This document shows positions 5,431-51,838 of a stretch of DNA of 64,000 bases, in pieces (within the stretch, counting starts at the first letter, position 1; each line of letters begins with the position of its first letter). The stretch is taken from NCBI GenBank assembly GCA_902786665.1, contig CADADN010000016.1, positions 1 to 64,000 of the forward strand, in the 5' to 3' direction. The stretch comes from an uncultured Prevotellaceae bacterium (GTDB taxonomy: Bacteria > Bacteroidota > Bacteroidia > Bacteroidales > Bacteroidaceae). Under the pieces are notes generated by a model, which saw only the letters and a program-made list of their open reading frames with translations, ran no database searches and was not told where the DNA came from. A program made the translations under genes and the position numbers.

Positions 5431-5449
5431 AACCATCAATATCCAGAGG

Positions 5450-5622: not shown

Positions 5623-5702
5623 AAGGTGGGGGGCTACGGTCGCCAGGGAGTATTGGATTTAGAGTGTCGAAGTATCCCTGTGCTACGGCACAGCCACCTT
5701 GT
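5623..5702 (-). ncRNA. upstream degenerate Y-RNA copy
   Basis: AAGGTGG (5700-5694) pairs with CCACCTT (5629-5623), enclosing about 78 nt with a perfect CTGTGC-CGTA-GCACAG hairpin. It shares GTGCCGTAG-N7-ATACTTCG and a following 13/17-matching segment ending CAATAC with the full Y RNA immediately downstream. It lacks the T-arm, acceptor and D-arm parts. I read it as a diverged tandem duplicate, either a second short Y RNA or the 5' domain of one transcript. Confidence 0.6.
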
Positions 5703-5750
5703 TTTTCTCTTTTCAATCTTTCAAAGACCGTTCTTGTCTTGTTTCGATTG

Positions 5751-5758
5751 CAAAGGTA
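5751..5758 (-). promoter_or_regulatory. -7 box for the Y-RNA/rsr transcription unit
   Basis: On the minus strand TACCTTTG matches TAnnTTTG, about 50 nt upstream of the first Y-RNA stem. I cannot see a good TTTG at the -33 position. Confidence 0.55.
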
Positions 5759-5879
5759 GGAAGGTGCTCCGCAGTGAATTTGCGTAACGAAAAAAAAGTT
5801 TCAAAAAAAATATCTTTTCCTCTTTTTTCTTGTCAAAATACTGTCATGTCTTGCCCAATTGCCGTTTTTCCCACCTAAA

Positions 5880-5911
5880 TTTGCACGTTTCGGAAAAAAA
5901 ACGTAATTTTG
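5880..5911 (+). promoter_or_regulatory. promoter of miaA operon
   Basis: TTTG (5880-5883), a 20-nt spacer and TAATTTTG (5904-5911) give a full Bacteroidetes promoter match 35 bp before the miaA ATG. Confidence 0.7.
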
Positions 5912-5945
5912 CCTGTCAACGAAAAAAACTTAGCCCTTGCCACCC

Positions 5946-36428: not shown

Positions 36429-37361
36429 TTATAAAAATGAACTGTTGTGTGATGCGTATTTCCCCTGCCAAAGATCATGCCTTTCCATATATCCCTCTAA
36501 CATATTGGTGAATTCCTGGCTTTTCAGTCCCCATTTGGGAGCCAACACCATTTCTTTAGGCGACAACGTTACAAACCTTTCCAGCAGGATGTTTTCCCGT
36601 AGTCGTGAAATATATTCGGCCAAAAGTGAAATATATTCACTGACCTCGAAAATACGTATGGCTGATTGTTCATGCATTTGGGCAAGCAACGTGCCTTTGA
36701 GAACTTGCAGATGATGTATTTTGAGAAAATGCAGGGGTAGGGAGGATACGACGGATGCCTGTAGGAGACATTCGTTGGCATCCTCGCCGGGCAGCCCAAG
36801 TATCACATGGGCGCCGGTATGGATTCCCCTTGATGCCGTAGCCTCAATTGCTTTTTGGCTGCATGAGAAGTCATGCCCTCTGTTGATGGTGCGCAAGGTG
36901 TGGTCTTTGACACTCTCGATGCCGTATTCCACAGCGACGAAAACATGGCTGCCCAGCTGTTGCAGATAATCGAGCAAAGGTGTGCTGACGCAGTCGGGAC
37001 GCGTGCCAATGATGATACCCGCGACATCGTCTTCCGACAATGCTTCCTCGTATTTCCCGCATAGTGTATCCAAATCGGAGTAAGTATTGCTGTATGCTTG
37101 AAAATAGACAAGATAGCGCATGTCATGGTATTTCCTTCCGAAGAAGGCTTTCCCGTCTGATATCTGTTGGGAGATGGTCTTGCGGGCATCACAATAGAAA
37201 GGACTGAACGAACGGTTGTTGCAGTAGATGCATCCGCCGACGCCTTTCGTCCCGTCTCGGTTGGGGCAGGTGAACCCGGCGTCGACCATGATTTTTTGCA
37301 CGCGAAAAGGGAAGTGCTTTTTCAGCCAATCCCCATAGTCGTTGTATCTTTTTTTGCCCAT
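36429..37361 (-). CDS. TIGR01212-type radical SAM protein (YhcC-like)
   Basis: From ATG 37361 the protein has 310 residues and begins MGKKRYNDYGDWLKKHFPFRVQKI. The radical SAM cluster is 'TCPNRDGTKGVGGCIYC', with the characteristic wide spacing C-x11-C-x2-C. 'GTRPDCVSTPLLDYL' and 'VAVEYGIESVKDHTLRTINRGHDF' are conserved in this family. The molecular function of TIGR01212/YhcC proteins is not firmly established. A -7 box ends only 6 nt before the ATG, suggesting a leaderless transcript. Confidence 0.92.
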   Translation of the reverse strand: MGKKRYNDYGDWLKKHFPFRVQKIMVDAGFTCPNRDGTKGVGGCIYCNNRSFSPFYCDARKTISQQISDGKAFFGRKYHDMRYLVYFQAYSNTYSDLDTLCGKYEEALSEDDVAGIIIGTRPDCVSTPLLDYLQQLGSHVFVAVEYGIESVKDHTLRTINRGHDFSCSQKAIEATASRGIHTGAHVILGLPGEDANECLLQASVVSSLPLHFLKIHHLQVLKGTLLAQMHEQSAIRIFEVSEYISLLAEYISRLRENILLERFVTLSPKEMVLAPKWGLKSQEFTNMLEGYMERHDLWQGKYASHNSSFL

Positions 37362-37366
37362 GGCTG

Positions 37367-37374
37367 CAAAGATA
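37367..37374 (-). promoter_or_regulatory. -7 box of the radical SAM (TIGR01212) gene
   Basis: TATCTTTG on the minus strand is followed by CAGCC and then ATG, so transcription would begin at or next to the start codon. No clear -33 element is seen. Confidence 0.5.
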
Positions 37375-37474
37375 CATCTTTTACACCTAAATAATGGCAT
37401 GTGTCGGAAATAATCTACCAAGAGGGTGGCATATGGGAAGGCAAGATATGGAATTAAAAAACATACATCATTTC

Positions 37475-37747: not shown

Positions 37748-38320
37748 ATGAAAGAGCAAGAGAAGCACGATGAGTCTCGCAGGGACTTTTTGAAAAAACT
37801 CATCGCCGGAGGATTCACTTTGGCGACGGGACTGTTTATGGGTTCTAAGATAGCCAAGGCCGGGGAAGTCCTCTCCGCCATGGGTGCATGCAGCACGTCA
37901 TACAGTTGTTCTGGCGGGAGTGGCAAATGCGGCACTTCGTATTCTTGTTCGGGCCAGGGCGCCGGTGGCAAGGGCAAATGCGGCTCCTCCTACGACTGCG
38001 CGGGTGGCGGCGGCAAATGCAGCACGTCATACTCTTGTTCGGGCCAGGGCGCCGGTGGCAAGGGCAAATGCGGCTCCTCCTACGACTGCGCGGGTGGCGG
38101 CGGCAAGTGCAGCACGTCATACTCTTGTACGGGCCAAGGTGCCGACGGCAAGGGCAAGTGCGGCTCCTCCTACGACTGCGCGGGTGGCGGCGGCAAGTGC
38201 AGCACGTCATACACTTGTGCCGGCCAGGGTGCCGACGGCCAGGGCAAGTGCGGCTCCTCCTACGACTGCGCGGGTGGCGGCGGCAAGTGCAGCACGTCAT
38301 ACGCTTGTACGGGTAATTGA
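37748..38320 (+). CDS. Tat-exported Cys-repeat peptide, candidate RiPP precursor
   Basis: From ATG 37748 the 190-residue peptide has a twin-arginine signal (ESRRDFLKKLIAGGFTLATG, residues 9-28, with probable cleavage after AKA38). The rest is almost entirely Gly, Cys, Ser, Tyr and Lys. There are ten C-x-x-S-Y-x-C motifs (first Cys48), alternating KCGSSYDC and KCSTSYxC, separated by Gly-rich spacers such as SGQGAGGKG. The 90-bp unit is repeated about four times. The stop is 8 bp before a PqqD-like/radical SAM/SPASM gene, which points to a ribosomally made, radical-SAM-modified product. I know of no named family with this repeat. An upstream in-frame ATG (37634) would fall in the inverted-repeat element and hide the Tat signal. 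Confidence 0.85.
   Translation: MKEQEKHDESRRDFLKKLIAGGFTLATGLFMGSKIAKAGEVLSAMGACSTSYSCSGGSGKCGTSYSCSGQGAGGKGKCGSSYDCAGGGGKCSTSYSCSGQGAGGKGKCGSSYDCAGGGGKCSTSYSCTGQGADGKGKCGSSYDCAGGGGKCSTSYTCAGQGADGQGKCGSSYDCAGGGGKCSTSYACTGN
37971..38310 (+). repeat. 90-bp coding tandem repeat in the precursor gene
   Basis: AGGGCAAATG/AGGGCAAGTG recurs at 37971, 38061, 38151 and 38241, an exact 90-bp period. Copies 1-2 use AAATGC and GGTGGC; copies 3-4 use AAGTGC and GACGGC, so the array has two sub-families. Confidence 0.95.
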
Positions 38321-38328
38321 AAGGTTCC

Positions 38329-39618
38329 ATGAAACTGCTGTTGCCTTCCACCGTCCAACGGATAGACGAAGGAGAGAAAACCATCTTCTTCAATCCCGAC
38401 GTGCCTTCATGGGTCGTCACCGACAGAAACGGTGCCTTGCTGCTCTCCCTTTGCAACGGTTCCTTGACGCAAGAGGAAATGGTCGGATTGCTTGAGGAGG
38501 AATATGGCGGGGAGGCTGCCGACATGGTGGACAGGTTCTTCCGCCATGCCATTGAGTCAAGGTTGTTTGACACCCCTTCTCCCGGTGAAACTCCCATCCT
38601 CAGGAACGAGGGAAGGCTGAGCATCGTGCAGTTTTCCATTTCCCCGTCTTGCAACCTCAACTGCCGATACTGCTATGCCACCGACAGGGAGGAGAGTGCC
38701 CATCCAAGGATGACGCTGGATGACTACAGGCGCGTGGTGGACGAGTTGTGCGAGATGTCGGACATGGTGAAGTTCACCTTGACTGGCGGAGAACCCTTGC
38801 TCAACAAAGACTGCCTCGACATCGCGAGGTACATCAAGGGCAAGGGGCATTACGTAGACCTGTTGACAAATGCCACGTTGGTGGACAGTCGCAACGTGGG
38901 GCGTATTGCCGAGGTGTTCGACATGGTGACCGTGAGCGTGGATGGCAGCAGCGAGGAGTTGCATGAGGCTTTTCGCGGCAAAGGGTCGTTCAAGCGGACG
39001 GAACGCGCCATCGACTTGATGGTGGCGAATGGCATCGACACAAGGTTGTCGATGACCGTCAATCGCCTGAACATCCACGACGTGGCGGCGATGGCTCGAA
39101 AATATGGCAGCCGCTTGAGTTTCGCTCCACTCTTTCCCGCTGGGAATGCGAAGAAGGATCAAGACATTTCCATCACCGGTGCAGAATATTATGAGGCGCT
39201 GCGCCACGCCGAAGGGGTGAATCCCCTTTCGTATTGTGAGTCGTCGCTCGACGAGGCAAGGCATTGTCGCAGCTGCAAGTGCGCCGTGGGCGACAGCGAA
39301 CTGAGTTTCTCTGCCACCGGGGATGTCTATCCCTGCCAGTTGTTGCACTATCCGGAATTTCTTCTTGGCAACATACACGAGAGAGGTGTGTGGGAGATGT
39401 ATGAGCAGTCGCCCGTCGTGGAGATGTGCCGGCGTCTCACCGTTGACAACATCGAGGGGTGTGCCACGTGTTTCCTGAAATACGTGTGTGGCGGGGCTTG
39501 CCGTGCCCGTGCCTTCCATGAGTGTGGCGACATCTGGCAGTCGGGACGTTTCTGCGAATACGAGCGGCGTGCTTTCATCGATGGCATCATCGACATCTAT
39601 TCCCAAAACGTGCTTTGA
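38329..39618 (+). CDS. PqqD-like/radical SAM/SPASM peptide maturase
   Basis: The 429-residue protein has an N-terminal PqqD-like RiPP recognition element (about 1-85: 'MKLLLPSTVQRIDEGEKTIFF', 'LLLSLCNGSLTQEEMVGLL'). A radical SAM core has the cluster CNLNCRYC (Cys108, 112, 115) and 'LTGGEPLLNKD'. The C-terminal SPASM domain has CATCFLKYVCGGAC (C-x2-C-x5-C-x3-C) preceded by 'CRSCKCAVGD' and 'ATGDVYPCQLLHYPEFLLGNI'. Such enzymes install thioether, C-C or similar crosslinks on peptides. The likely substrate is the Cys-repeat protein immediately upstream. ATG 38329 is chosen over the TTG overlapping the precursor stop. Confidence 0.95.
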   Translation: MKLLLPSTVQRIDEGEKTIFFNPDVPSWVVTDRNGALLLSLCNGSLTQEEMVGLLEEEYGGEAADMVDRFFRHAIESRLFDTPSPGETPILRNEGRLSIVQFSISPSCNLNCRYCYATDREESAHPRMTLDDYRRVVDELCEMSDMVKFTLTGGEPLLNKDCLDIARYIKGKGHYVDLLTNATLVDSRNVGRIAEVFDMVTVSVDGSSEELHEAFRGKGSFKRTERAIDLMVANGIDTRLSMTVNRLNIHDVAAMARKYGSRLSFAPLFPAGNAKKDQDISITGAEYYEALRHAEGVNPLSYCESSLDEARHCRSCKCAVGDSELSFSATGDVYPCQLLHYPEFLLGNIHERGVWEMYEQSPVVEMCRRLTVDNIEGCATCFLKYVCGGACRARAFHECGDIWQSGRFCEYERRAFIDGIIDIYSQNVL

Positions 39619-39788: not shown

Positions 39789-39793
39789 CCACG

Positions 39794-39833
39794 AAAACAA
39801 GTGTATCTCCCCGCCGGAGATACACTTGTTTTT
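39794..39833. repeat. left palindromic inverted-repeat site
   Basis: AAAACAAGTGTATCTCC and GGAGATACACTTGTTTT form a 17-bp perfect palindrome around the asymmetric centre CCGCC. The 22-bp part at 39802-39823 recurs as its exact reverse complement at 51571-51592. It can also act as a terminator-like hairpin, being followed by TTTTT. Confidence 0.85.
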
Positions 39834-39995
39834 GAGTTTTTCCGCAACCACCTGGCATTGTCTCAAGTGATGGTTGCTTCCATTCACATTCTATTTTGCA
39901 AAGATAGCAAATATATGGTACAACTCCAAATTTTCTTTCCAAAAATGTTGGCAATTTCTTTTATTTATGACATTTTATTTATTTGGAATCGACAA

Positions 39996-41036
39996 CTAAT
40001 CCTTCTTGTCTTTTAGTAAATTGATTATTCTCTCATTTTCATTATGTATTCTTGTTTCATCAATTGATTTCAAATAAACCTTTGTCATATTTTCTGATGA
40101 ATGACCTAAAGCTTCGCTGATGACACTGACAGGAATGTCAATGGATTTGGCTATGCTTGCCCATGAATGACGTGCCACATACAAGGTGAGTTTTTGTTGG
40201 ATGCTTAGACGGATGCCGATGGTAACAAGATTTTTATTCACTATATATTGAACATGTCGGTATTGATTGCGTTCTCCTTTGCCAACGGTATGGATGATGG
40301 GAAGCAAATAGGTGTCGTTAAATGCCTCATAGCTATCTACAATTTGTTGCATGGCGGGCTCCCATTTGACAGAGAGATTTTGTCCTGTTTTTTTTCTAGA
40401 ATAATACAAGATCCCGTTATTGATGTCGCTTTTTTTCAAATATGCCATATCTACAAAAGCCATTCCCCGAGTATAGAAACTGAACAGAAACAAGTCGCGC
40501 GCCAATTGCTCCTGCTTGTTTCCTGGGATATAATCTTTGATTTTGCGTATGTCTTGTTGCGAAAGTGCACGTTTCTGGGTTTTTGCCATACCCGTGTAAA
40601 CATGTTCGAAGGGGTGATTGTCTGTTGCCAGTTTTTGTCGGACGGCCCGGAGGTAAGTCGCCTTCAAGATTCTCATATAAAACGATATGGTATTCCAGCA
40701 TACCTTGTTGCTTTTCAAGTATTCCTGATAGTTTATCATCAAGGAATCATTGAAATCCTCAAACAGCAAGGTTTTGCTTTTTAGGAACCGGTTAAAACTG
40801 TGGAATGTGGTGCGATAGGTCTCGGCTGTCCGTTGTCTTCCATTTTGTTTTTTCTCCTTGATCAAAACCTCCATGAAATCTTGGAAAGATTGTTTCTCAA
40901 TGGTTGCAGATGAAGCACAGGTTCCCTCCTCTTTTGTGTTGTCTGTGATACATCTTGCTTCATTCTTTTCGGAGTCGACGAAAATTTTGACAGATTCTTG
41001 ACTTGTGGGAATGTTGATTGTAAGTTCGATTTTCAT
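39996..41036 (-). CDS. tyrosine recombinase (Tsr-type DNA invertase/integrase)
   Basis: The 346-residue protein has an N-terminal SAM-like core-binding domain (about 50-135) and a catalytic domain with Arg190 (FYTRGMAF), Lys215/216 (SRKKTGQ), Arg289-His290 (LYVARHSWAS), His312 and nucleophile Tyr321 (MTKVYLKSID). The usual HxxR histidine is Tyr286, as in Bacteroides 'ARHSWAT' recombinases. Such Tsr enzymes in Bacteroidetes invert promoter or gene segments controlling surface proteins, though some are element integrases. It is the leftmost gene of a minus-strand block bounded by 22-bp inverted repeats. Confidence 0.93.
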   Translation of the reverse strand: MKIELTINIPTSQESVKIFVDSEKNEARCITDNTKEEGTCASSATIEKQSFQDFMEVLIKEKKQNGRQRTAETYRTTFHSFNRFLKSKTLLFEDFNDSLMINYQEYLKSNKVCWNTISFYMRILKATYLRAVRQKLATDNHPFEHVYTGMAKTQKRALSQQDIRKIKDYIPGNKQEQLARDLFLFSFYTRGMAFVDMAYLKKSDINNGILYYSRKKTGQNLSVKWEPAMQQIVDSYEAFNDTYLLPIIHTVGKGERNQYRHVQYIVNKNLVTIGIRLSIQQKLTLYVARHSWASIAKSIDIPVSVISEALGHSSENMTKVYLKSIDETRIHNENERIINLLKDKKD

Positions 41037-41550
41037 ATCTATGAGTTAATTATTAAATAGAAATAGTGTTTGAAAATTAAACTAACAAAGTTGAAAAATA
41101 TTATACATGTAAACTTATTGGATACACTTTTCGTTTTATTACATCTATTATTGTTGGGAACGTATTATCGTACCGCTCCCAAAATAGTCATAGCTACTCT
41201 ATCTTCTAGTTATGTAGGCTCAAGTGTGGTGCAAATGTTGCACATCCACCTGAACATTCCAAAACCCTATATTCAAAAGAGCAACATCATTATAAAAACA
41301 AAATTGAATCCAAATGCGTTGTTATTGCACAACACATGGTTTACAAGTCACATCTCCGTATGAAAGCCAATGGGCTATCTTGCAAATCATAGCTAACAAG
41401 TAATACATATGCTTTTTCAATAAATAATTAGAACTTTACATTTGGTGGAAAAATATTTTTGAAGCACTCAACCAATATGTGGCTTCTACAAGGAAGTCTT
41501 TTGGGACATCGATGAATGCCAGACAGTAGTTATGGCAAATCCATTCCTTC
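41037..41550. other. AT-rich non-coding stretch upstream of the recombinase
   Basis: About 510 bp without a supportable gene. A 97-codon plus-strand frame has no start context, signal peptide or family signature. I found no full promoter match and no copy of the 22-bp repeat here. It could hold the regulatory region of the recombinase. Confidence 0.5.
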
Positions 41551-42078
41551 TTATTGATTCAAATCCATAAGGTCTAAGATGCTGATAAATAATTGCCTTT
41601 TGTCGCTCCACTCTTTATTGCGGAAAGCAAAGCGATGATTGTTGCCGTATTCTAGTAGGAAAGGTTTTTCGGCAGAGAAAAGCTGGCGCAACTGACTTCT
41701 GGTCAGCTTGAAACGTATTCGATTGACATAACCTTTTTTACCCAATTCGCGAAAAAGGAACTCTCCTTGGGATGAGATGGCAACACCTTCAGCGGGTATA
41801 ACAGTAACAAGGCTGTCTGTGATGGGAGTGGTGGAATGTATGGTAGCCGTTAGAGACACAGTGTCTGTAGTGACCAGGCATGATAGGTCGAAAACCAGAT
41901 TCTTCAAAGCCTTGCTGTCGGATGTCTTGGCCATCTTTTGCGGCATGATGAAATAGACCATGCCCTCAGCAGTGAGGTGGGTCTTGTATTTTTTGTGTAT
42001 TTTGGGGATATTTCCCGAAAAGGAGGAGATACACGACAACTGTATGATGGCCAGTAACAATAACCTGAACTTTACCAT
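41551..42078 (-). CDS. hypothetical secreted protein
   Basis: From ATG 42078 the 175-residue protein starts MVKFRLLLLAIIQLSCISSFSG, a signal peptide. The body is beta-rich ('LVFDLSCLVTTDTVSLTATIHSTTPITDSLVTVIPAEG', 'HRFAFRNKEWSDKRQLFISILDLMDL'). I recognise no family. The alternative upstream start (48 bp earlier) has a Pro-rich N terminus and is less likely. It is in the same strand block as the TRL-like gene, 77 bp downstream of that gene's stop. Confidence 0.75.
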   Translation of the reverse strand: MVKFRLLLLAIIQLSCISSFSGNIPKIHKKYKTHLTAEGMVYFIMPQKMAKTSDSKALKNLVFDLSCLVTTDTVSLTATIHSTTPITDSLVTVIPAEGVAISSQGEFLFRELGKKGYVNRIRFKLTRSQLRQLFSAEKPFLLEYGNNHRFAFRNKEWSDKRQLFISILDLMDLNQ

Positions 42079-42154
42079 AGCGATAGGAAGGAAAGGAAAT
42101 GCAGGTGGGCGGACAAATCCACCCACCTTTTGTTAAGAGATTACTAGAAAAAGA

Positions 42155-42475
42155 TTACTCACCATAGACGATGGTGGTGTGCTTGGCATAAATGCCTAAG
42201 ATGTTGGACGTCTCGTAGTCTACGTGGCTGACCTTTTTTATACCACCAGCTTTGGCTGCTGCGTTGATACTGGCGTCACCCGTGGAAACGATGCCCAAGA
42301 TAGAGGTTGCCTCGGCTGTACCTACTTTGGAACCCAGGGTGTTGCTCGTTACCATACCAGGGCTTTTTTGTGACTGATAGACATAGCCCACTTGAACAGC
42401 CTGGTTATTCATAGCACAACTTGTAAAGAGCAGTGCACAAGCGGCACATGCAACACTAATCAATTTTTTCTTCAT
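42155..42475 (-). CDS. TRL-like family lipoprotein
   Basis: From ATG 42475 the 106-residue protein has a lipoprotein signal (MKKKLISVACAACALLFTSC-AM). The C-terminal half 'GTAEATSILGIVSTGDASINAAAKAGGIKKVSHVDYETSNILGIYAKHTTIVYG' matches the TRL-like family (PF13146). These are small predicted membrane-anchored proteins of unknown role, widespread in Bacteroidetes and Proteobacteria. Length is typical. Confidence 0.85.
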   Translation of the reverse strand: MKKKLISVACAACALLFTSCAMNNQAVQVGYVYQSQKSPGMVTSNTLGSKVGTAEATSILGIVSTGDASINAAAKAGGIKKVSHVDYETSNILGIYAKHTTIVYGE

Positions 42476-42609
42476 AGTTTTGAAAATTAGCATATCCATA
42501 GACCTCTTATGGATTGGTTGATAAATAGAACGCTCGTAAGGTCAATGCGTATGCACACGGACGTTATAGAATTGGACTTAAAAAATATCCTGTTGTGTTC
42601 AGATACGAC

Positions 42610-43671
42610 CTATTTTGATACCGGGCGAACCGTGGGTCCGCCACAGAATCGGCCGCTATTGCTCCAATTCACGCTGCTTGAACTGAAATCCAACAAATAA
42701 GCGCATACCGAATTGGTTTGGTGCTGCGTGGATGACCAGTAGTAGCCTTTGTCACCTTCACCGCTAAGATTGGCACCTGAGCGGACACCTGCAGCGGGTA
42801 GGAAGATGCTGCCGCCACTCGGGCCGACAAACTTCCTGCCATCGACACCGTTGAGAGTGGTATATTCACTTGTGCAGTTTTCTACAAGTTCCTTGTTTTG
42901 GTCTAATGTTGGCATCTGCCAAGTACCACCCCATTTTACTGTTGCCACATCGTATTGCGTACCAGCAATGTCACTCCCAAGGTTGTGGCACGTGTCCTCT
43001 GAACCATCGCAATGGATGTAGGTGGTCCAGTCATAAACATCTTTCTGCGCCAACTCTCCCCATGCATAGTGACCTCCATACTCTTCCGGTGCGTCAGCAC
43101 CCATATTGCAGCATGACCATTTCGTCCCAGAGGGTAGCCCTAAGTCAATCATATGGGGATGGTTGGAGTCGGGACAGGCAAGATAGGTTTGTGGTGTTGG
43201 AGGGTCTGAGTTTTGTTTGATGAAAGTGAGGTTGTCATATCCATCCGTCCCGGTGAATTCTGTTGGGGAGACGATGGTGATGGTGAAAACCAACGGGTCG
43301 TCTTCTTCTCCTTCCAAATAGATGACAAGCGTATTATTCGAAAAAGAATAGGTCATCTTGTCCACATGACCAAAATTGCCTTCACTGAAATCTTCTATGG
43401 AACCTGTGTGGTCGTCGTTGAACACCCATATGGCGTCAATCTCATGCCTGCCTGCCTCATACGCATACCAAACGCCGATGATGGAGAAATCTTCCGGGTT
43501 AGGATTCTCTCCACCTGTCTTTTCACGGAAAAAGGTACATGAAATGTCTTCGGTGTCAACGACGATTTGGGTGCCGTCGACCTTTTCCACGACCATCTCA
43601 TACTTTTTCTGCCCTTGACAAAAGGAGGCAGAAATCCATAACATGAAAAAGAGCAATGATATTTTTTTCAT
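42610..43671 (-). CDS. FISUMP-domain secreted protein
   Basis: The 353-residue protein has a signal peptide ending SFCQG and an N-terminal module 'YEMVVEKVDGTQIVVDTEDISCTFF'. Residues about 50-130 resemble a lipocalin-like/META beta-sheet ('IIGVWYAYEAGRHEIDAIWVFNDDHTGSIE'). The C-terminal Fibrobacter-succinogenes-major-paralogous domain (about 165-353) has 'HPHMIDLGLPSGTKWSCCNMGA', 'GGHYAWGE', 'WQMPTLDQNKELV' and 'SGGSIFLPAAG'. FISUMP domains are surface-associated with unknown ligands. Two more copies are at 61565 and 62516. Confidence 0.88.
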   Translation of the reverse strand: MKKISLLFFMLWISASFCQGQKKYEMVVEKVDGTQIVVDTEDISCTFFREKTGGENPNPEDFSIIGVWYAYEAGRHEIDAIWVFNDDHTGSIEDFSEGNFGHVDKMTYSFSNNTLVIYLEGEEDDPLVFTITIVSPTEFTGTDGYDNLTFIKQNSDPPTPQTYLACPDSNHPHMIDLGLPSGTKWSCCNMGADAPEEYGGHYAWGELAQKDVYDWTTYIHCDGSEDTCHNLGSDIAGTQYDVATVKWGGTWQMPTLDQNKELVENCTSEYTTLNGVDGRKFVGPSGGSIFLPAAGVRSGANLSGEGDKGYYWSSTQHQTNSVCAYLLDFSSSSVNWSNSGRFCGGPTVRPVSK

Positions 43672-43691
43672 AATTGTTGTTTTTGACGATG

Positions 43692-44150
43692 CTACTTGTT
43701 AACTACTTTGAAACTGTTTTTTACAGCATGGATGATATAAGTGCCTTTGGGAAGGTCTCGAAGGTTGAAAGACACCGACCCCATGCCATCGGCAACAATG
43801 GTCTTCATGGCCTTGCCATCCATGGTGCAAACATGGATTTTGGAACCTTGTGGTAAGTCGTTGACGGAAACCTGCCCGTTGGAATAACATGGCAGGCAGG
43901 GCTTTTCCTTGACATCCGATGTGCTGGATACGCAATACTGGTCGATATCAGCTATGGGGAACGAGAAGCTGGCATCATCATTCCGCACATACAGATACTC
44001 CCCGTCAAATGTGATGACAGGATTTGAGTCAAGGGATAGGACGGTTTCATTGCCCGTCTTCAGCTTGATGACCAAATTGGTCACATTGTCGGCACGAGTT
44101 ACGATGGTTGTGGCCATCAAAGCCATGATTAATAGTATTCGTTTCAACAT
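43692..44150 (-). CDS. small secreted protein with C-terminal sorting domain
   Basis: The 152-residue protein has a signal peptide (MLKRILLIMALMATTIVTRA), an N-terminal module ('LVIKLKTGNETVLSLDSNPVITFDGEYLYVRND...FSFPIADIDQYCV') and a T9SS-like C-terminal domain ('QVSVNDLPQGSKIHVCTMDGKAM...GSVSFNLRDLPKGTYIIHAVKNSFKVVNK'). It has almost nothing besides these two parts. It resembles the 153-residue protein at 57763, and both sit next to larger surface proteins. T9SS assignment is inference; no T9SS genes are in the window. Confidence 0.8.
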   Translation of the reverse strand: MLKRILLIMALMATTIVTRADNVTNLVIKLKTGNETVLSLDSNPVITFDGEYLYVRNDDASFSFPIADIDQYCVSSTSDVKEKPCLPCYSNGQVSVNDLPQGSKIHVCTMDGKAMKTIVADGMGSVSFNLRDLPKGTYIIHAVKNSFKVVNK

Positions 44151-44220
44151 TGTTTACATGGGTTGAGGACGTTTATTCTGCACTGCTGATTACTTATTAT
44201 TTGTCATATGGCTACGACTT

Positions 44221-45006
44221 TCATTCAGCAGCCACATTGGCGAATCCTAGTTGCTTGTATTGATTGAGGACATTTGGCGAAATATCTGATGGAAGTGTCA
44301 AGCGACCTTCCTTGAGTGTCTGATAGCAGAAGGTGTTAGCTTGAAAGCTAATGAAATGCATTGACGACAGCGTTATATCCAACAAGTTGGGGCAGTCATA
44401 GAAGGCAAAATCGCCGATGGATTCCAAATGATGTGGAAACACCACTGATTTCAAATGGTGGCAACCATTGAATGCACCTATTCCTACCTGGGTGAGTGCA
44501 GGAGGCAAATCCACTTTCTCCAAACCGTCGCATTTGAAAAACGCATATGCTCCAATGTTGCTCACATTGTCAGGAATGTGAAAAGAAGTTGCTTTCTTGG
44601 CTCGTGGAAAATGGAGCAAGGTTTGTCGGTCGGCGGAATAGAGCACCCCATCTGCATCACAATAGATGGGGTTGCTTTCTGAAACAAGGATTTGTTCCAA
44701 CTTTAAGCAGTAATTGAAGGCTGAGACGGCTATGGACTTGACAGTTGTGGGGATTTCTATTGTTTTGAGATAGGTGCATCGTTTGAAAGCAAGATTTGAG
44801 ATGGATACCACTTGATAAGCGGCATCCTGCCATATCACCTGTTCGGGGATGGTAAAATGTTCCCCTTCATACCAACATTCTATCAGGCGCACTGTATTTT
44901 TGGAGTTGTCAACAATTTCATAACAGGTCGCGTCGGAAACGATGTTGTAGGCATTTGATTTAGAGATAATACATATGGCCAAAGCCAGTAATATCATTTT
45001 TCTCAT
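44221..45006 (-). CDS. BspA-type leucine-rich-repeat protein
   Basis: From ATG 45006 the 261-residue protein has a signal peptide (MRKMILLALAICIISKSNA) and LRR_5 repeats: 'VSISNLAFKRCTYLKTIEIPTTVKSIAVSAFNYC', 'NIGAYAFFKCDGLEKVDLPPALTQVGIGAFNGC', 'SIGDFAFYDCPNLL'. It ends without a sorting tail. Such treponemal/BspA repeats mediate adhesion in oral Bacteroidetes. It is shorter than the plus-strand LRR proteins at 52910 and 54770. Confidence 0.88.
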   Translation of the reverse strand: MRKMILLALAICIISKSNAYNIVSDATCYEIVDNSKNTVRLIECWYEGEHFTIPEQVIWQDAAYQVVSISNLAFKRCTYLKTIEIPTTVKSIAVSAFNYCLKLEQILVSESNPIYCDADGVLYSADRQTLLHFPRAKKATSFHIPDNVSNIGAYAFFKCDGLEKVDLPPALTQVGIGAFNGCHHLKSVVFPHHLESIGDFAFYDCPNLLDITLSSMHFISFQANTFCYQTLKEGRLTLPSDISPNVLNQYKQLGFANVAAE

Positions 45007-45433
45007 ACGGTTTGCTTTTTTTAAAACTGGGATGTCAAATACGCTTATCTGACACCCAGTGTAAATACTGATTTCAAAGGTGGAAATGCTTTCGCAAGAC
45101 TCCTGAAAAACAGAATCCATGTGGAATTATTCCCACAAACAAACACAGCCCATCCACTGCCCTGTCATTTACTAATACTATATTAGATCAGATCATACTT
45201 AATGATGGAATTGGACAGTGGTGGGTGTGCCATTTGTCGTGCTTTCCATGGAGCACATGGTGAGCTAGTTTTTTAGACTAGTGTTGCATCATGAGAGGGA
45301 CGGACGTGTATCACTACATGATCCGCCCCTTATTGATTATAAGCCGTTATGAAATAAAGACTATAATAGTACGGACATAGTACATATACTGTCTTTTGTT
45401 AATTATGGAATGTATACACATAGGGACTATATT
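45007..45433. other. non-coding gap upstream of the LRR gene
   Basis: About 430 bp without a gene. I see AT-rich DNA and no full TTTG-N19-TAnnTTTG promoter on the minus strand. It separates two possible transcription units inside the minus-strand block. Confidence 0.45.
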
Positions 45434-47383
45434 TCATTTTATGAGTATCTTCCGGCCATTGATGATGTAAAGACCACGACGCAGTCCTCGGAGGGCTTTT
45501 TCTGGGTCTTTTTCATCGCGTGCTAGCATACCTTGCGCGTTATAGACACGTACACGGTCTTTGTTTTGGGATGCGTTGGCATATTGGGCAGTTGTTACGG
45601 CGGGATCGAAATTGATTTCAATAACCAACTCCTTTTCGTAAAGGACATCATTCATAAGAAGGATACTGTCTGGGATATGAAGCAGATAAGTACCCTTTGA
45701 CAATTTGGGTTGTATGCTATCCACTTCAAGAGCGGTGTTGGTGGTACCCAATTTCAAGAATGCCGTTGCCACTTCATTGTTCAAGGTGTCTGTGAGTGTG
45801 ACTTCATAACCTATGTGATGATCATTGTCCACTAATCCCACCCAATAGAAATGATTGAATGTCAACAAAATGCTTTTCAAGGTCTCATCTTGATCTGGCA
45901 TAGTCATAATGGTGACATCATAGGCATAGTCAGGTAAGCCAAGAACTGTATAGTAGAAAGACATTTCACTGGATATGTCCTCTTCATAATCTCCCAAAAA
46001 GAATGAACCATATGGATAATGCACAGTATATTCCCCAGGTTCCGTTATCGGAGTATATAATTTGACATGGCATTTTTTGTTGTCCTCATCATTTTTATCT
46101 TTATAGGCATAGGCAGTAGCAATTGTGTCACCTTTTTCGTTGGTGATAGTGATACCTTCCTCATTGAAATAATTGGGATAAACAGGTCTGTCAAAAGTTA
46201 TGCTGATTTCCGACAAGGTCATCACTTCGCTTCCATCGGCAGGATCCATCTCCTGTATGCCAAATGTTTTTTCTCGGTTAGTAATTTCATACAAGATGGT
46301 CGTCTTCTTGTTGTCAAGCATTTTTTTGCCGATGGAGAAAGTTCCTTCGGGTATGACCAATTGGTATGTACCGATTTCATTCAATGGTTGTTCCAAAGTA
46401 TAGGAATAAGACGCTTCGTCGGAATCAAGAGTCAAATCACCTGCTCTGAATGAGCGAACCACCTCGCCATTGGAGGAATTAGACAATTGGATGATATTTT
46501 CTTCATTATAAAGGACAATTCCTTCTTCATTAGAAAATACGAATTTCTTTAGTGAAGTATACCTTCTATCAGAAGGATAGACAGAAATAACGGGATAACC
46601 AAATTCGCAATTATATTTAAGCTCATAATAAGAATTCTCCCCTTTCCCTTTGTTACCTTTGATAGTCCTGCCGCCGAGATCTTTAGCATAGACACGCAAT
46701 ATCACATAGGAAGTACTCCTCAGCAAAACAGCTCGAGGTATGTGCATCATCTGTTCATACAGATGTCCTTCAACAGGAGTGAAATTTACAAAGTCGTAAC
46801 TATTGCCATCCTCATCAAAGACTTTACTTCTTTCCCTATCGATTATAGCATCACCTGTAAACTCTACGATGGTGAAATCAATATCAACATCTGTAAAACC
46901 AACATTTTCACTAGGACTGAATGACAAATATTTGATGTTGCTGTATTCATAATCGTCATCATCATCCTGTTGGGAAGTTCCACTTCCCACATAATTGACT
47001 TGGACTTTTCCTATAACAGGACTTTTTGAGTCTGCCACTTCATGACCAACAATCTCCAAAGTGTAGGTATGTCCCTTTGCGAGAGTGACATCATTATAGA
47101 ATTTCAAAAGCCATGACCCACTGTCTGTCTTGATACTGTTGAACGCGTCATAGATGATGTTTTTGGTATCATCCTCAATCAATCTCTCATGGAATCCACC
47201 GCAGATGGAGTCGAAACTTGTCTTGAACAATATCGAATCTCCCTTGGAGAATCCTTCCAATACACTGTTGTTTTGGGGGAAGACAACAACAGAAGGGTTT
47301 TCTTCACCCGATTCTTGAGCAAAAACGGATGAGGAAAATGCTGCAAATAAGATTAAAAGCAAAAAATGGATGTAACGGCTCAT
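45434..47383 (-). CDS. large secreted surface protein with C-terminal sorting tail
   Basis: The 649-residue protein has a signal peptide ending SSSVFAQ. It is beta-rich, with several Ig-like repeats of the type 'DPADGSEVMTLSEISITFDRPVY' and 'YPSDRRYTSLKKFVFSNEEGIVL', and intervening 'GTYQLVIPEGTF' / 'GEYTVHYPYGSFFLGD' / 'GTYLLHIPDSIL' elements. The end, 'DRVRVYNAQGMLARDE...LRGLRRGLYIINGRKILIK', is a Bacteroidetes C-terminal sorting motif. Function unknown; a surface adhesin is plausible. Confidence 0.82.
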   Translation of the reverse strand: MSRYIHFLLLILFAAFSSSVFAQESGEENPSVVVFPQNNSVLEGFSKGDSILFKTSFDSICGGFHERLIEDDTKNIIYDAFNSIKTDSGSWLLKFYNDVTLAKGHTYTLEIVGHEVADSKSPVIGKVQVNYVGSGTSQQDDDDDYEYSNIKYLSFSPSENVGFTDVDIDFTIVEFTGDAIIDRERSKVFDEDGNSYDFVNFTPVEGHLYEQMMHIPRAVLLRSTSYVILRVYAKDLGGRTIKGNKGKGENSYYELKYNCEFGYPVISVYPSDRRYTSLKKFVFSNEEGIVLYNEENIIQLSNSSNGEVVRSFRAGDLTLDSDEASYSYTLEQPLNEIGTYQLVIPEGTFSIGKKMLDNKKTTILYEITNREKTFGIQEMDPADGSEVMTLSEISITFDRPVYPNYFNEEGITITNEKGDTIATAYAYKDKNDEDNKKCHVKLYTPITEPGEYTVHYPYGSFFLGDYEEDISSEMSFYYTVLGLPDYAYDVTIMTMPDQDETLKSILLTFNHFYWVGLVDNDHHIGYEVTLTDTLNNEVATAFLKLGTTNTALEVDSIQPKLSKGTYLLHIPDSILLMNDVLYEKELVIEINFDPAVTTAQYANASQNKDRVRVYNAQGMLARDEKDPEKALRGLRRGLYIINGRKILIK

Positions 47384-47409
47384 AATAGCATAATTATGTG
47401 TATGATGGG

Positions 47410-47898
47410 TTATTGCTCGAATTTTTTAGGTTGTATCGTGAGATACCATTTCCCGTCTATACGGAAAGGATGCAGCGACCCCTTGACTGTGCCAGGTATT
47501 TTACTTTCTACACTGTCAGGAAACATTCTGGTGGTGTATCTCACCTCAGAATCGCTGTCACTATACAAGATGATGGCATCAAGCGTGTAGCTTTCAACAG
47601 GAAATGCTTTCAAGGTGCTTCTCAAATCATTCCTTTGAGATGCTGTCAAAGGTTTGGCCTCTTGGTGCTCAACATCATAGAGTTGGTCTAACGCGCCTTC
47701 CACATCCTTTTGTTTCAGGGTTTCAAGGAATTGAGTGGCCATTTCCATAACGGCAATAGTATCCTCATGGCTCCTTTGCATACCAAAATCGGTTCGAGGA
47801 TTCTCAGGGATGGTCAAATTCCTGTTTTTGGGTTCATCCTTGCATGCCACCAACAACAAAGCAGATAAAAATAGAATGATAAAACCTTTTGTTTTCAT
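47410..47898 (-). CDS. small lipoprotein, hypothetical
   Basis: The 162-residue protein has a lipobox 'LSALLLVAC-KDEPKN'. The KDE after Cys resembles the lipoprotein export signal for surface exposure in Bacteroidetes. The mature part ('MATQFLETLKQKDVEGALDQLYDVEHQEAKPLTASQRNDL', 'IDGKWYLTIQP') resembles DUF4878/NTF2-like lipoproteins, but I am not sure. It lies between two large surface protein genes on the same strand (26 and 84 bp gaps). Confidence 0.75.
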   Translation of the reverse strand: MKTKGFIILFLSALLLVACKDEPKNRNLTIPENPRTDFGMQRSHEDTIAVMEMATQFLETLKQKDVEGALDQLYDVEHQEAKPLTASQRNDLRSTLKAFPVESYTLDAIILYSDSDSEVRYTTRMFPDSVESKIPGTVKGSLHPFRIDGKWYLTIQPKKFEQ

Positions 47899-47982
47899 AT
47901 CTTTTTAAAATAGGGAGTGCCCCAATTACATTTAGGGCACTCCCCGAAGTAGTTAAATTAGATAATGTTCTTTAAACCATAA

Positions 47983-50900
47983 TTATTGTCCAGGAAGTTC
48001 TCCGTGCGGATATACCCATCCATAGACCCATGTGCTGATCGAGCCCCATCCATAAGAGACGGTAACAGGAATTGCAACTCTAACCTTGGCTTCAACGTTG
48101 GAACCTCCATTGTTGTAGAAATAGATGTAGTTTCCAACTTGTTTGAAGGAGATGGCGATGTTACCATTGGTCTTTAGTCTCAATTGACCTGATGTCATAC
48201 CACCGACTGCAGGATCGATGTTGTTGTCGATGACAATATTACCATTGGCATCCTCCTTGAAAGAGAACTTCGCATCGTCACAAGCGAAAACAGGATCTTG
48301 AACTTGGTAGTAATCCCACAAGCTCTGTGTCCACATCAACTGTTCGTCTGTAGATGACACAGATCCATCAGGAACATTCTTGACCAAATAGCCGCGGAAG
48401 TCAGTCAGAGTGAAGAAAGATCTCCATTGACGAGGACAACCAGAAACCTCACCATCCTGCCAATTAGCCTCTGTTTCTATATGCATGTTGACACGCAGAG
48501 GAGCAACCAAATAAGCTTTGTAGCTCCAAACCGGAATGTAGTTCCAGGGGTTCAATGCACCCCAGACGTTGATGCCGACAGGCTTGGTATGAGTGCGCAA
48601 CGGCTGTCTTGTTCCATCAGGACCGATGATATCATTGGCTGGATTATTATCCAATGCATTCAGATAAGCACTGTTGACGGCAGTAATGTCTGCAGCAGAA
48701 AGAGTGGCACGATCCAAACGTGCATAAGTATTCTTTGCTGAGTTATCCCAAGCCTTATGGGTGCTTGCCACGTCATGCAAGTTGTAATTGCCATTTGCTG
48801 CATAGTTGTCTTGCCACCATGTCATGGTCAGCAAGCCCCTCTTGTAGCCTGCAAAGTTCTGCCAGTTAATAAGGGAAAGTGGTAATTCACTATTATAGAA
48901 ATATCTGGTATCCACATGCTTGCCACCACTCAGAGATATTCTTGAGCCATTTCCTGTTTCATAAATATCAGAAGTTGTAAGCGTACCATAGTTCTGTTCA
49001 AACTGGATATCCCATGAGCCACATGGTGAAGGAATGTTCTTGACAATTCTATTATTCTCATATTTATAGACGTTCATCAAGTCATTGTCATAGAAGCAGT
49101 AGTTCTTACCATGGGCAGCCCACCATTCCTGAAGTTCAGATTTGAACTGCAGCGGAAGGATATCATGCTCCTGATGTGCATTGCTCAACCAATATTGGTC
49201 ATAGAATGCAGTGATGGACGGCAGAGGTTTCGGCAGCGAGATGGTGAATTTCCAATTGAAATACACATTAGGATAACGCGGGTCATTGGACTGGAAGAGC
49301 ACTTTGGCTGTAAATGTCTTCGTGTCATTCTCCGAGTTGCAATAGATAGTCTTGATCTGACTAGGTGTCAAATCCCAAGAGGCTATGATGGCATCACCAT
49401 GGAGGTTGGTAGTTTCCGAAACAACAGGCAAAGCGAGTGGATCTGTAATTCTATCCAAATGATTCGGTGCGGAAGTCAATGAAGCATAATTACTTGGCCA
49501 GTTGGTCTTCCATGAGCCAGTAACCAATATCGGTTTTGATGTTTCGGTCATATATATTTCACGGAACATCTGCTCTGAAATACCTGCCAATGCGGAGTGA
49601 TGCTCAATCGCTGCATAAACTTGAGTGATGAATTCCCTCCAAGTAATAGGGGTAGCTGAGGCACCACCGCAAGGATCGAGAGTGGCTGCACTTTCTTTTT
49701 CAAACAGAAGTGTATCGGCAAGTTCTGGCTGAGGATCTGGACCTGGGTCTTTCTTGTCAGTCCATTTAATCTTCAAATAGCGCCTGTCAACGACATGACC
49801 CTGAACTGTGTCTACCAATTCTACACGGACGATAGGCTCTTTACCAATACAAGCCTTGTTGTCTGTCACACCATTAGGAATACATGATTTAATGATACCA
49901 TCGGGAGTGACGGTAGCAAACTCTTGCTGGTTGGTTCTGTGTGGAGCATCGTTCCAATAATCACGATTCATCATATGGAAGCGGAAAGCCATACCATATT
50001 GCTTCAGTTGAGCAGGTGTGATGGTGGTTTCGCAAACGCAAGCTGGGTCACGATAGCTCCCATTATACTTGCAACCCGTGATAAGCTTTTTCAAATCATA
50101 GGTTTCCCTATAATAAACCAATTTGGAAACAAGCTTCAAGGGATTATCATCAACACGTGAATTTAAGACTGTCAAAGAGTCACTGAAATGACGAGGTCTA
50201 TACAAATCAACAAGTCTTCCTGATGGATTATCAACATTGTCATAGAAAGTTTCTTGACCAGACCAATCTCTATTAATTAATGCTGCAAAATCAGCATTGT
50301 TCTCTTGTGCACGTGCGGCAATCCTTGGGAAGTAGAAATTCTCCACCAAGCGGGAGTTCTCGGAAATGATGTCAGCTGGCTCATACAAGTTAGGATTACG
50401 TGGAACCTTCAAAGCCACAATGGTGATAGGATTGACATCGTCATCACCAAGGTAAACATTCTTGACTTTCTTGATTTTCACCGTCATCAATCCATTATGG
50501 AAATCCTTGATTCCATTGAAAGCAATAGGAGACTCGACTTCAACGGCACGTGTCTTAGCAGTAGCAGCCAGGAAGTTGATGTTCGCCACGTCGATGCCAC
50601 TTTCTTGCACGGTAGTAGGATTCAGACGATAAGTTGCCTCTGTCTCACCAGTGCTGACAAGGTAAGAAGCACCTGTAGGAACGGTGTCATTTGGCAAGAA
50701 TGCATTATATTTGAGAGATGTAAACTCGATTGCCTCAATACCTTTGATAAAGAGTTGGGGAACAAGGGAGATGCTGTTGAGCATGCGCTCCACCAGAACT
50801 TCCAAGGCTGAAAGGTTGGCGTTCACATTGACAATCATCTGCTCCAGATTAGTCATTTGAGATCTCATCACCGAGATTTCTTGGTTTGTCTGAATCTCGC

Positions 50901-51471
50901 CGATGGCGGCTTTCAGCTGATCAATCTGCTCTTGCAGGTTTGCATCATTGAACTCGTCCATGAATTTCTGCAAAGCTTCCATTTGGATTCTCAAGTTGGC
51001 CTCCACAGCTTCGCGAGCCTTAGCCTCATCCTTCAATTGTCCTGTCAAAGCAGCAAGGTCGGCAATAACACCATCCACAGTTGATTGGTCGGCCTTTTGG
51101 TCGATTCTGCCAATAGCGTCATAAGCGGCCTCGATTTGTGATGTCAGCACGGCCATTCTGGCGGCATAGTCTTTCTCCATGCTATCCAGTTTGGTTTTCA
51201 GTTCATCCACAGTCGATTGGTCTGCCTTATTGCTGATGGCAGACTCCAACTGAGCCTTGAGAGCAGCGATTTGCGTCTCATAAGCGGACTTCTCCGTATT
51301 CAGACTTTGCTCCAAATTAGTCTTGACCGTCAGCAATTCTGAGCGAAGTGCCACAATCTCGGCCTTATTGGATTTAATGTCATCATCGTAGTCCTTACAA
51401 GACGTAAACAAACTCATAGATGCCAAGAAGCAGGCACCCAAGAGCAGCATACTAAAAAGTTTCTTTTTCAT
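47983..51471 (-). CDS. giant surface lipoprotein with N-terminal coiled coil
   Basis: The 1,162-residue protein has a lipoprotein signal 'SMSLFTSC-KDYDDD', with an acidic export signal expected to place it on the cell surface. A coiled-coil stalk (about 30-225) contains repeated 'ADQSTVDELKTKLDSM'-like heptads. A long beta-rich ectodomain follows, with a proline linker 'DPGPDPQPE' and an aromatic-rich C terminus ('VSYGWGSISTWVYGWVYPHGELPGQ'). I recognise no catalytic domain. It is the first gene of the minus-strand block next to the right inverted repeat. I find no TAnnTTTG box on its strand between that repeat and the start codon. Confidence 0.85.
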   Translation of the reverse strand: MKKKLFSMLLLGACFLASMSLFTSCKDYDDDIKSNKAEIVALRSELLTVKTNLEQSLNTEKSAYETQIAALKAQLESAISNKADQSTVDELKTKLDSMEKDYAARMAVLTSQIEAAYDAIGRIDQKADQSTVDGVIADLAALTGQLKDEAKAREAVEANLRIQMEALQKFMDEFNDANLQEQIDQLKAAIGEIQTNQEISVMRSQMTNLEQMIVNVNANLSALEVLVERMLNSISLVPQLFIKGIEAIEFTSLKYNAFLPNDTVPTGASYLVSTGETEATYRLNPTTVQESGIDVANINFLAATAKTRAVEVESPIAFNGIKDFHNGLMTVKIKKVKNVYLGDDDVNPITIVALKVPRNPNLYEPADIISENSRLVENFYFPRIAARAQENNADFAALINRDWSGQETFYDNVDNPSGRLVDLYRPRHFSDSLTVLNSRVDDNPLKLVSKLVYYRETYDLKKLITGCKYNGSYRDPACVCETTITPAQLKQYGMAFRFHMMNRDYWNDAPHRTNQQEFATVTPDGIIKSCIPNGVTDNKACIGKEPIVRVELVDTVQGHVVDRRYLKIKWTDKKDPGPDPQPELADTLLFEKESAATLDPCGGASATPITWREFITQVYAAIEHHSALAGISEQMFREIYMTETSKPILVTGSWKTNWPSNYASLTSAPNHLDRITDPLALPVVSETTNLHGDAIIASWDLTPSQIKTIYCNSENDTKTFTAKVLFQSNDPRYPNVYFNWKFTISLPKPLPSITAFYDQYWLSNAHQEHDILPLQFKSELQEWWAAHGKNYCFYDNDLMNVYKYENNRIVKNIPSPCGSWDIQFEQNYGTLTTSDIYETGNGSRISLSGGKHVDTRYFYNSELPLSLINWQNFAGYKRGLLTMTWWQDNYAANGNYNLHDVASTHKAWDNSAKNTYARLDRATLSAADITAVNSAYLNALDNNPANDIIGPDGTRQPLRTHTKPVGINVWGALNPWNYIPVWSYKAYLVAPLRVNMHIETEANWQDGEVSGCPRQWRSFFTLTDFRGYLVKNVPDGSVSSTDEQLMWTQSLWDYYQVQDPVFACDDAKFSFKEDANGNIVIDNNIDPAVGGMTSGQLRLKTNGNIAISFKQVGNYIYFYNNGGSNVEAKVRVAIPVTVSYGWGSISTWVYGWVYPHGELPGQ

Positions 51472-51838
51472 ACGATAACAATTTAAAGATTAATAAAAAA
51501 CAAATGATATGTTAGTTCTTATAATTCTCATTATTTCATTGACAGGGTAGTTATTATAGTACACGTTTTAGTATCTCCGGCGGGGAGATACAGAGTTGTT
51601 GCATTATCTATGAAATATTTTGACTTATTTGGCTTTAATAATTAATAATGGTATGAAAAGAAATTACAAAACAACACGTTTGCCCCTTGGGGATGAGCAT
51701 TTTTTGCTCTCGACAGCTATGGTAGTTGCACAAATTACAACCACCATACCCTTATAAGGTTGAAGAATGATTTTTATATTTCAATTGGGAATAGGTATTT
51801 CAAACAAATATGTTCAATAACTATAAAACTAAAAAATT
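51472..51838. other. intergenic region holding the right inverted-repeat site
   Basis: This 367-bp AT-rich region separates the giant lipoprotein (minus) from the DUF2135-like lipoprotein (plus). It holds the 22-bp repeat at 51571-51592 and a weaker palindrome ATGGTAGTTG...CAACCACCAT (about 51719-51747). I see no full promoter for either gene; TATATTTC near 51774 is a one-mismatch -7 box on the plus strand. Confidence 0.55.
51571..51592. repeat. right palindromic inverted-repeat site
   Basis: GTATCTCCGGCGGGGAGATA plus CA is the exact reverse complement of 39802-39823. The arms GTATCTCC/GGAGATAC flank the asymmetric centre GGCGG, opposite to CCGCC at the left site. Similarity ends outside the 22 bp. 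Confidence 0.85.

Follow-up and report, generated by a model that had tools for sequence, protein, structure and literature searches.

A twin-arginine-signal repeat peptide and its dedicated radical SAM maturase in Bacteroidales: a probable multi-core relative of streptosactin

The window considered here, a stretch of 64,000 nucleotides (positions 1 to 64,000, forward strand) of contig CADADN010000016.1 from the uncultured Prevotellaceae assembly GCA_902786665.1, encodes a repetitive Gly- and Cys-rich peptide followed on the same strand by a radical SAM (S-adenosylmethionine) enzyme with a SPASM region. An earlier examination of the letters alone (hereafter the sequence-only reading) had singled out the two genes as a candidate new class of ribosomally synthesized and post-translationally modified peptides (RiPPs). 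The precursor/maturase pair is real, conserved and unnamed. Its sequence features lead us to regard it as probably, if not with great confidence, a two-gene RiPP cassette related to streptosactin, with many cores in one precursor, each module bearing one or two alpha-thioether rings, export by the twin-arginine translocation (Tat) pathway in Bacteroidales, and a product that persists as a long chain. The two genes and their parts are as follows:

37748..38320, + strand: precursor gene, 190 residues; a Met stands at the equivalent position in Bacteroidales orthologues
37748..37861, + strand: twin-arginine signal and probable RiPP leader (SRRDFLKK...LFMGSK...AKA); TIGR01409 above cut-off
37889..38317, + strand: array of ten C-x-x-S-Y-x-C-x-G modules, spaced by 13 or 17 residues
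38329..39618, + strand: radical SAM/SPASM maturase, 429 residues
38392..38559, + strand: PqqD-like RiPP recognition element, residues 22-77; weak Pfam match, present in most relatives
38635..39099, + strand: radical SAM core with CNLNCRYC, residues 103-257; C108, C112 and C115 invariant in 12/12
39280..39555, + strand: SPASM region with C318, C336, C378, C381, C387, C391 and C409; seven Cys invariant in 12/12

Read directly from the DNA, the precursor open reading frame (37748-38320, +) runs from an ATG at 37748 to a stop codon at 38318-38320. Its N-terminus, MKEQEKHDESRRDFLKKLIAGGFTLATGLFMGSKIAKA, matches the NCBIfam Tat-signal model TIGR01409 by a narrow pass (18.1 against a cut-off of 16.7 bits, E 0.0025); the putative cleavage site was placed by eye. 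The array is built at the DNA level from a 90-bp unit present in 4.4 copies, which encode the ten modules (four CGSSYDC, three CSTSYSC, and one each of CGTSYSC, CSTSYTC and CSTSYAC), and all 20 Cys of the precursor fall inside them. The maturase frame (38329-39618, +) starts 8 nt 3' of the precursor with an ATG at 38329 and stops at 39616-39618, while an alternative in-frame TTG at 38317 overlaps the precursor stop codon. The DNA therefore confirms the layout described by the sequence-only reading, namely a 190-residue Tat-signal peptide with ten CxxSYxC motifs placed 8 bp upstream of a maturase that contains CNLNCRYC and a SPASM C-x2-C-x5-C-x3-C. Pfam recovers Radical_SAM (1.8e-26) and SPASM (7.2e-8) in this enzyme, both above their cut-offs, and across the 12 family members compared the CxxxCxxC motif and the SPASM Cys set are invariant, as in maturases of the sactipeptide class. 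The N-terminal recognition element proposed earlier is supported by a weak match: PqqD scores 19.3 bits (E 0.0014) in the window enzyme, below the gathering score of 23.4, and among 12 relatives ten give a hit at E<=0.1, the best with 1.1e-5.

A scan of the genome collection gave at least 580 pattern matches, and the best 80 of 429 relatives were kept. Among these are 15 close Bacteroidales loci, 46-98% identical, whose record titles name the rumen or omasum in seven cases (yak, sheep, goat, roe deer and water buffalo) and a RUG-series bin, presumably again from the rumen, in six, with no source in two. The array is present in all 13 of these loci that have DNA 5' of the enzyme; the contigs of the other two (L017, 71% identical, and L018, 70%) begin within the enzyme gene and enter no precursor count. 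The precursors of L015, L019, L021 and L022 are identical to those of L008, L009, L010 and L011 and were counted once. Together with five loci from the family-genome scan and the window's own assembly, the total comes to 17 distinct precursor/maturase pairs with 189 modules, 15 of them from Bacteroidales, mostly ruminant-foregut assemblies, and two from the spirochaete phylum.

In the latter phylum, 4 of 344 genomes have a relative of the enzyme at E<=1e-45, and arrays occur in two of them. One, G1022 (locus L140), has an 89-residue precursor with four CGLGTGC-SGGGG modules. In the other, a member of Spirochaetaceae (L027) likewise returned by the scan of the collection, four CGMGLGC/CGIGLGC modules, which lie outside the first module pattern and were recognised by reading the locus, end an apparent membrane protein encoded directly 5' of the enzyme. 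To judge by eye, this protein (5321-5998) has a signal and membrane-spanning parts; it carries the modules as its C-terminal tail and is encoded by a gene overlapping the start of the maturase gene by 4 nt. Neither precursor contains a Tat motif. The weaker relatives from this phylum, L141 (E 6e-49) and L142 (E 1e-46), show no module in the fetched stretches.

The two genes are tightly linked in their occurrence. Across 399 genomes of the window's family, sampled from a larger group, the enzyme (E<=1e-60) is found in five, and the precursor, searched with the window sequence as sole query at E<=1e-5, is found in the same five. The claim of a dedicated pair is thereby borne out, and homologues of the repeat peptide in genomes without the enzyme, which the sequence-only reading had named as grounds for abandoning its proposal, were seen in none of the 399, nor was either gene found alone. 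The pair is absent from all 207 family genomes whose completeness is 90% or more and whose contamination is 5% or less, so all family carriers are lower-quality assemblies. At the level of the order, the enzyme (E<=1e-50) occurs in 1 of 393 genomes, the window's own. This assembly holds a second pair (L002, G000:C80:8900-10180), with an enzyme 60% identical and CGSSFDC-type modules; because the assembly is 9.67% contaminated, this second pair or that of the window may stem from another organism. As the pair is single-copy in all 13 other carriers checked, L002 possibly belongs to the contaminant species.

The array is not a general partner of such enzymes: a scan of L003-L007 and L028-L127 for stretches with at least two C..[SAGT]..C.G modules returned only repeat copies of the same loci (L093, L096, L097), and nine distant Clostridia-phylum relatives (9/398 genomes, E 8e-60 to 1e-51) show no array within stretches of about 4 kb. 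Viral contigs contain one close relative (L102, 52%, on a contig that ends before the precursor side) and 25 weak ones, none with a precursor, and plasmids at E<=1e-20 encode only distant enzymes (8 records, all below 60% identity), including one from S. salivarius that adjoins ABC transporters and is not this system. In a tree of 29 enzymes, comprising 16 of the 17 array-bearing ones (without L011) and 13 picked from the fetched loci, with StsB/GggB and three of the nine Clostridia relatives (L160, L161, L163) left out, the 16 form one side of a branch with support 80/90, drawn as an open fork. The linkage does not extend beyond the two genes. When the neighbours of 16 loci (L016 not among them) were compared with one another rather than annotated singly, over flanks of up to 6 kb, several shortened by contig ends, and with frames antisense to the pair set aside, no other family of open reading frames of at least 80 residues was common to three or more loci.

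The repeats themselves are under purifying selection. Their ratios of nonsynonymous to synonymous substitution are 0.074 (window/L016), 0.028 (L012/L013) and 0.028 (L010/L011), with 0.063, 0.085 and 0.122 for the enzymes of the same pairs; the amino-acid pattern of the modules is held under codon drift. An artefact or chance repeat is ruled out, since the array is kept in 17 distinct precursors and its substitution ratios are low. Module number differs between close strains: there are ten in the window (37922-38313) and 12 in L016, whose enzymes are 98% identical, a difference that would result if 90-bp units were gained or lost.

The module is a conserved unit, as the sequence-only reading had supposed for the motif. 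We defined it as C-x5-C-x-G, a pattern to which the Cys at +6 and the Gly at +8 (189/189) themselves belong, and counted positions from the first Cys over all 189 modules of the 17 precursors. It covers every Cys of the mature region in 16 of the precursors. Each precursor of the full set holds 10-19 modules in Bacteroidales and four in the spirochaete phylum. Position +1 is Gly or Ser; +2 is Ser in 163, Thr in 14, Ala in 4, Leu in 4, Met in 3 and Ile in 1; and +3 is Ser in 163, Gly in 14 and Ala in 12, with no other residue. At the sequence level, a first-ring pattern CxxS with a small i+3 acceptor (Ser, Ala or Gly) hence holds in 189/189. Position +9 is Gly in 98, Gln in 68 and another residue in 23, and it covaries with spacing: every one of the 98 Gly modules is spaced by 13 residues, and 62 of the 68 Gln modules by 17. 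In the spirochaete phylum, CGMGLGC-SGGGG and CGLGTGC-SGGGG both carry Gly at i+3, as they do at +9 if a further module comes after them.

Position +4 bears on the type of crosslink. It is Tyr in 140 modules, Phe in 23, Ile in 12, Ser in 6, Leu in 4 and Thr in 4. The sequence-only reading had offered a Tyr-x-Cys bond as one option, and a Tyr-x-Cys or other aromatic, cyclophane-like crosslink, one per module, would be in keeping with the 163 modules that have Tyr or Phe here. However, Tyr is replaced in 49 of 189, and in 26, including all eight of the spirochaete phylum, the residue is non-aromatic, so that a Tyr crosslink cannot be general and the aromatic residue which triceptide-type cyclophanes have at the crosslink position is not a constant of this module; we regard this option as very improbable. 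Much the same low probability attaches to the idea that the paired Cys serve as metal ligands or disulfide partners while the enzyme carries out another change, such as epimerisation, or acts elsewhere. C-x5-C pairs in a Gly-rich chain could indeed bind metals, but the strict pairing of both genes, the conservation of all module Cys and the proximity of the SPASM enzyme to a thioether-forming family speak against it. An alpha-carbon acceptor at +3 is suggested instead by the residues there, which are always small, yet may be Gly, Ala or Ser.

The enzyme points in the same direction. The top NCBIfam match of the window maturase is StsB, named 'sactipeptide maturase' (NF045574), at 183.6 bits, with the next family at 136.8. 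The alignment is nearly full length and takes in the region of the recognition element (residues 6-415 of 433 against 8-416 of 466). StsB is matched in 12 of 12 members with the best E-value of the 25 families shown, and is the top match of both spirochaete-phylum enzymes too (204.8 and 155.0 bits). The window enzyme scores lower with PapB (102.2 bits), AlbA (78.7) and the SCIFF maturase (69), and its best sequence match in the PDB is 5wgg (2.7e-15), which we take to be the SCIFF maturase CteB. StsB is in turn presumably the maturase of streptosactin, the small growth-inhibiting product of the GggA/GggB 'GGG' system of Streptococcus thermophilus. Mature streptosactin is NASCGPSHSCGGGR, with a mass change of -4.0313 Da and a terminal Arg (PMC12445099). 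Its alpha-thioethers link Cys25 to Ser28 and Cys31 to Gly34 (PMC8172795; one passage of this paper prints Cys15, in conflict with the rings of PMC13361665). They form two four-residue rings made processively by GggB (PMC13361665), in C- to N-terminal order (PMC8326336), and the cluster includes a protease and regulators (PMC8172795).

The likeness between the two systems comprises a SPASM maturase that is similar over its full length, including the N-terminal domain, the CxxSxxC spacing with a small i+3 acceptor, and, in about half of the modules, the xxG that follows the core. Set against the module CGSSYSCAGG, the streptosactin segment CGPSHSCGGG shares with it the two Cys, the two Ser, the opening Gly and the final pair of Gly. 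In contrast, streptosactin has a single 14-residue core, where the present precursors have 10-19 tandem cores (four in the spirochaete phylum); in Bacteroidales the leader is a Tat signal; and there is no conserved neighbour in place of the protease and regulators. The short precursor, single core and adjacent protease typical of the StsB family are accordingly replaced here by 4-19 cores and no shared neighbour. Other thioether systems are less close. Subtilosin A/AlbA, SKF/SkfB and ruminococcin C likewise combine a radical SAM/SPASM maturase with Cys donors; subtilosin-type cores, however, form nested hairpins as against the tandem, unnested rings proposed here, and AlbA stands far below StsB in score. 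The ranthipeptide and SCIFF enzymes (PapB, CteB) are thioether-forming SPASM proteins and include the best PDB match, yet their family scores are lower, and where Gly stands at +3 of the present modules, C-beta bonds at that position are impossible. The ACGX system (TIGR04340), a weak match among 12 enzyme relatives, and the Gly-rich GrrA/GrrM system also place short repeats beside a SPASM enzyme, with repeats different from CxxSYxC.

The precursor matches none of the NCBIfam precursor families, in agreement with the sequence-only reading, which recognised the repeat in no named family. The pair passes no named family's cut-off and is in this sense unnamed, but to propose a new class is an overstatement. 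The curated family closest to the enzyme is StsB, a maturase of sactipeptides, and Cys, Ser and Cys are spaced in the module as they are in streptosactin, giving the predicted chemistry a precedent. The cassette is best filed as a tandem, Tat-exported variant with a probably streptosactin-like mode of action, neither a member of the StsB family nor yet a new class.

As to export, the precursor has the features of a Tat substrate: an S-R-R-x-F-L-K signal, a Tat model match above cut-off (in the window precursor) and TatC in the genome. All 15 Bacteroidales leaders contain RR[DEK]F followed by LFxGxK, and TatC is encoded in 14 of 15 carrier genomes, missing from the 2.0-Mb genome of L023 (G802). 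The presence of TatC is not discriminating, because it is common in controls (11 of 14 genomes); G399, a spirochaete with a precursor that lacks the signal, encodes it too. The Tat signal of the earlier suggestion is hence supported for Bacteroidales; in the spirochaete phylum both versions are without it, so that Tat export can be no general requirement. A Tat signal requires just hydrophobicity at the place of LFxGxK, and since this motif is constant it may be a docking site for the maturase. As the Tat pathway carries folded proteins, export by this route fits an order in which modification comes first, in the cytoplasm. A signal peptide that is at the same time the leader is also seen in bufferins and similar RiPPs, which use MNIO enzymes and Sec signals.

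These considerations lead us to the following proposal. The PqqD-like domain of the maturase would bind the precursor leader, which in Bacteroidales would also be the Tat signal, and would probably dock at LFxGxK, beyond the twin Arg. In each module the radical SAM centre would then take the alpha-hydrogen from the residue (Ser, Ala or Gly) three positions past the first Cys (i+3), upon which the Cys sulfur would close a four-residue alpha-thioether (sactionine) ring. In modules that precede Gly-Gly a second ring is possible, from the second Cys to its own i+3 Gly, as in streptosactin. The enzyme would act repeatedly along the 10-19 modules, and the stapled chain would be exported in folded form via Tat after modification. 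Genes for a protease, a transporter or immunity do not recur beside the pair, and for this reason the stapled product most probably remains, once exported, a long chain and is not released as a bacteriocin.

Several observations weigh against this multi-core streptosactin-like proposal. The window enzyme, at 183.6 bits, misses the curated StsB cut-off of 625 bits by far. The streptosactin core was scored against a matrix drawn from those 166 of 181 Bacteroidales modules in which four residues follow the second Cys. Its score was equalled or exceeded by 1,096 of 100,000 free permutations and, with the Cys kept fixed, by 5,787 of 100,000. Apart from the Cys spacing, the likeness of the cores is thus weak by itself and only suggestive, and the argument accordingly rests on enzyme and core together. 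The array branch of the tree is moderately supported, with long-branch warnings on several rows and with StsB/GggB not in the tree. Of the 189 modules, only 98 offer Gly as acceptor for the second ring, and 68 have Gln in its place.

Further, Gly is absent from +2 and +4 throughout the 189 modules, which makes C-beta thioethers possible there. The same cassette might then form ranthipeptide-like C-beta or C-gamma thioethers that link a Cys of the module with position +2 or +4, which are mostly Ser/Thr and Tyr/Phe/Ile, respectively, and PapB and 5wgg (CteB) are indeed among the enzyme's matches. However, StsB is the closest curated family, about 80 bits above PapB, and +2 (with Met, Ile, Leu and Ala) and +4 (with Tyr, Ile, Ser and Thr) vary in kind while +3 is always small; we consider this version of the chemistry improbable.

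Finally, 139 of 169 linkers in 16 precursors (9/9 in the window) end in Lys or Arg, which would allow trypsin-like release. In such a multi-core bacteriocin, an extracellular trypsin-like protease would cut after Lys/Arg and free streptosactin-like antimicrobials of 13 or 17 residues; the released CGSSYDCAGGGGK does resemble streptosactin, which itself ends in Arg. Yet Lys/Arg is absent from 30 of the 169 linkers, unevenly by species, being found in 12 of 18 in L008, 7 of 11 in L010 and none of three in L027; L140 likewise has it in none of its three linkers. The want of a conserved neighbour gene and the L027 modules, which form the tail of an apparent membrane protein, favour a lasting exported chain, perhaps of structural, adhesive or metal-binding function, over a bacteriocin, which we hold to be rather unlikely. 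The boldest alternative keeps the exported polymer and takes it as a new RiPP class after all: an extracellular structural or metal-binding fibre with up to 19 similar rings installed by a processive single radical SAM enzyme on a substrate whose leader is a Tat signal, with the spirochaete modules forming the C-terminal end of a membrane protein and a ring chemistry that could differ from that of streptosactin. This seems to us an unlikely outcome, if one that deserves to be kept in view.

Should the streptosactin-like interpretation be correct, a chemistry known from a small streptococcal peptide would reach, in the form of long tandem arrays, into two phyla of Gram-negative bacteria. The Bacteroidales precursors would offer a natural Tat-exported, many-ring substrate for studies of radical SAM processivity and an example on which the double role of a twin-arginine signal, in export and as RiPP leader, could be tested, and the system would hint at RiPPs serving as materials rather than antibiotics. 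A search of the open-access literature, subscription papers and supplements lying outside it, found no description of the system or of its module strings. The accessible parts of a survey of Bacteroidales RiPPs (PMC10352776), which contain no words beginning with 'tat', and of a survey of rumen biosynthetic gene clusters (PMC8241843) likewise do not describe it.

Turning to the surroundings of the pair, a second radical SAM protein is encoded upstream in the window (36429-37421, -), with Radical_SAM and Radical_SAM_C matches and no SPASM match; it is not a conserved neighbour. Downstream of the pair in L140 (2805-4144) lie a zinc-ribbon/TM2 protein and an M48 metallopeptidase, possible processing factors for the peptide; the gene that follows the L027 enzyme shows no zinc-ribbon/TM2 or M48 match. 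One more feature follows the maturase in the window:

39792..39834, + strand: terminator-like hairpin of 19 pairs, 3' of the maturase; stem perfect over 17 bp

Terminator-like sites are in no excess in the window (2, against a mean of 2.5 in shuffles), and this hairpin overlaps one arm (39802-39823) of an inverted repeat. Perfect 22-nt copies of the latter stand at 39802-39823 and 51571-51592, where none is expected in shuffles for the core pattern. A tyrosine recombinase (39999-41036, -) is encoded just inside the segment they bound, and in L016 the DNA past 39823 continues as window positions 51592-45828 reversed. The 11.8 kb from 39802 to 51592 are probably an invertible DNA segment.

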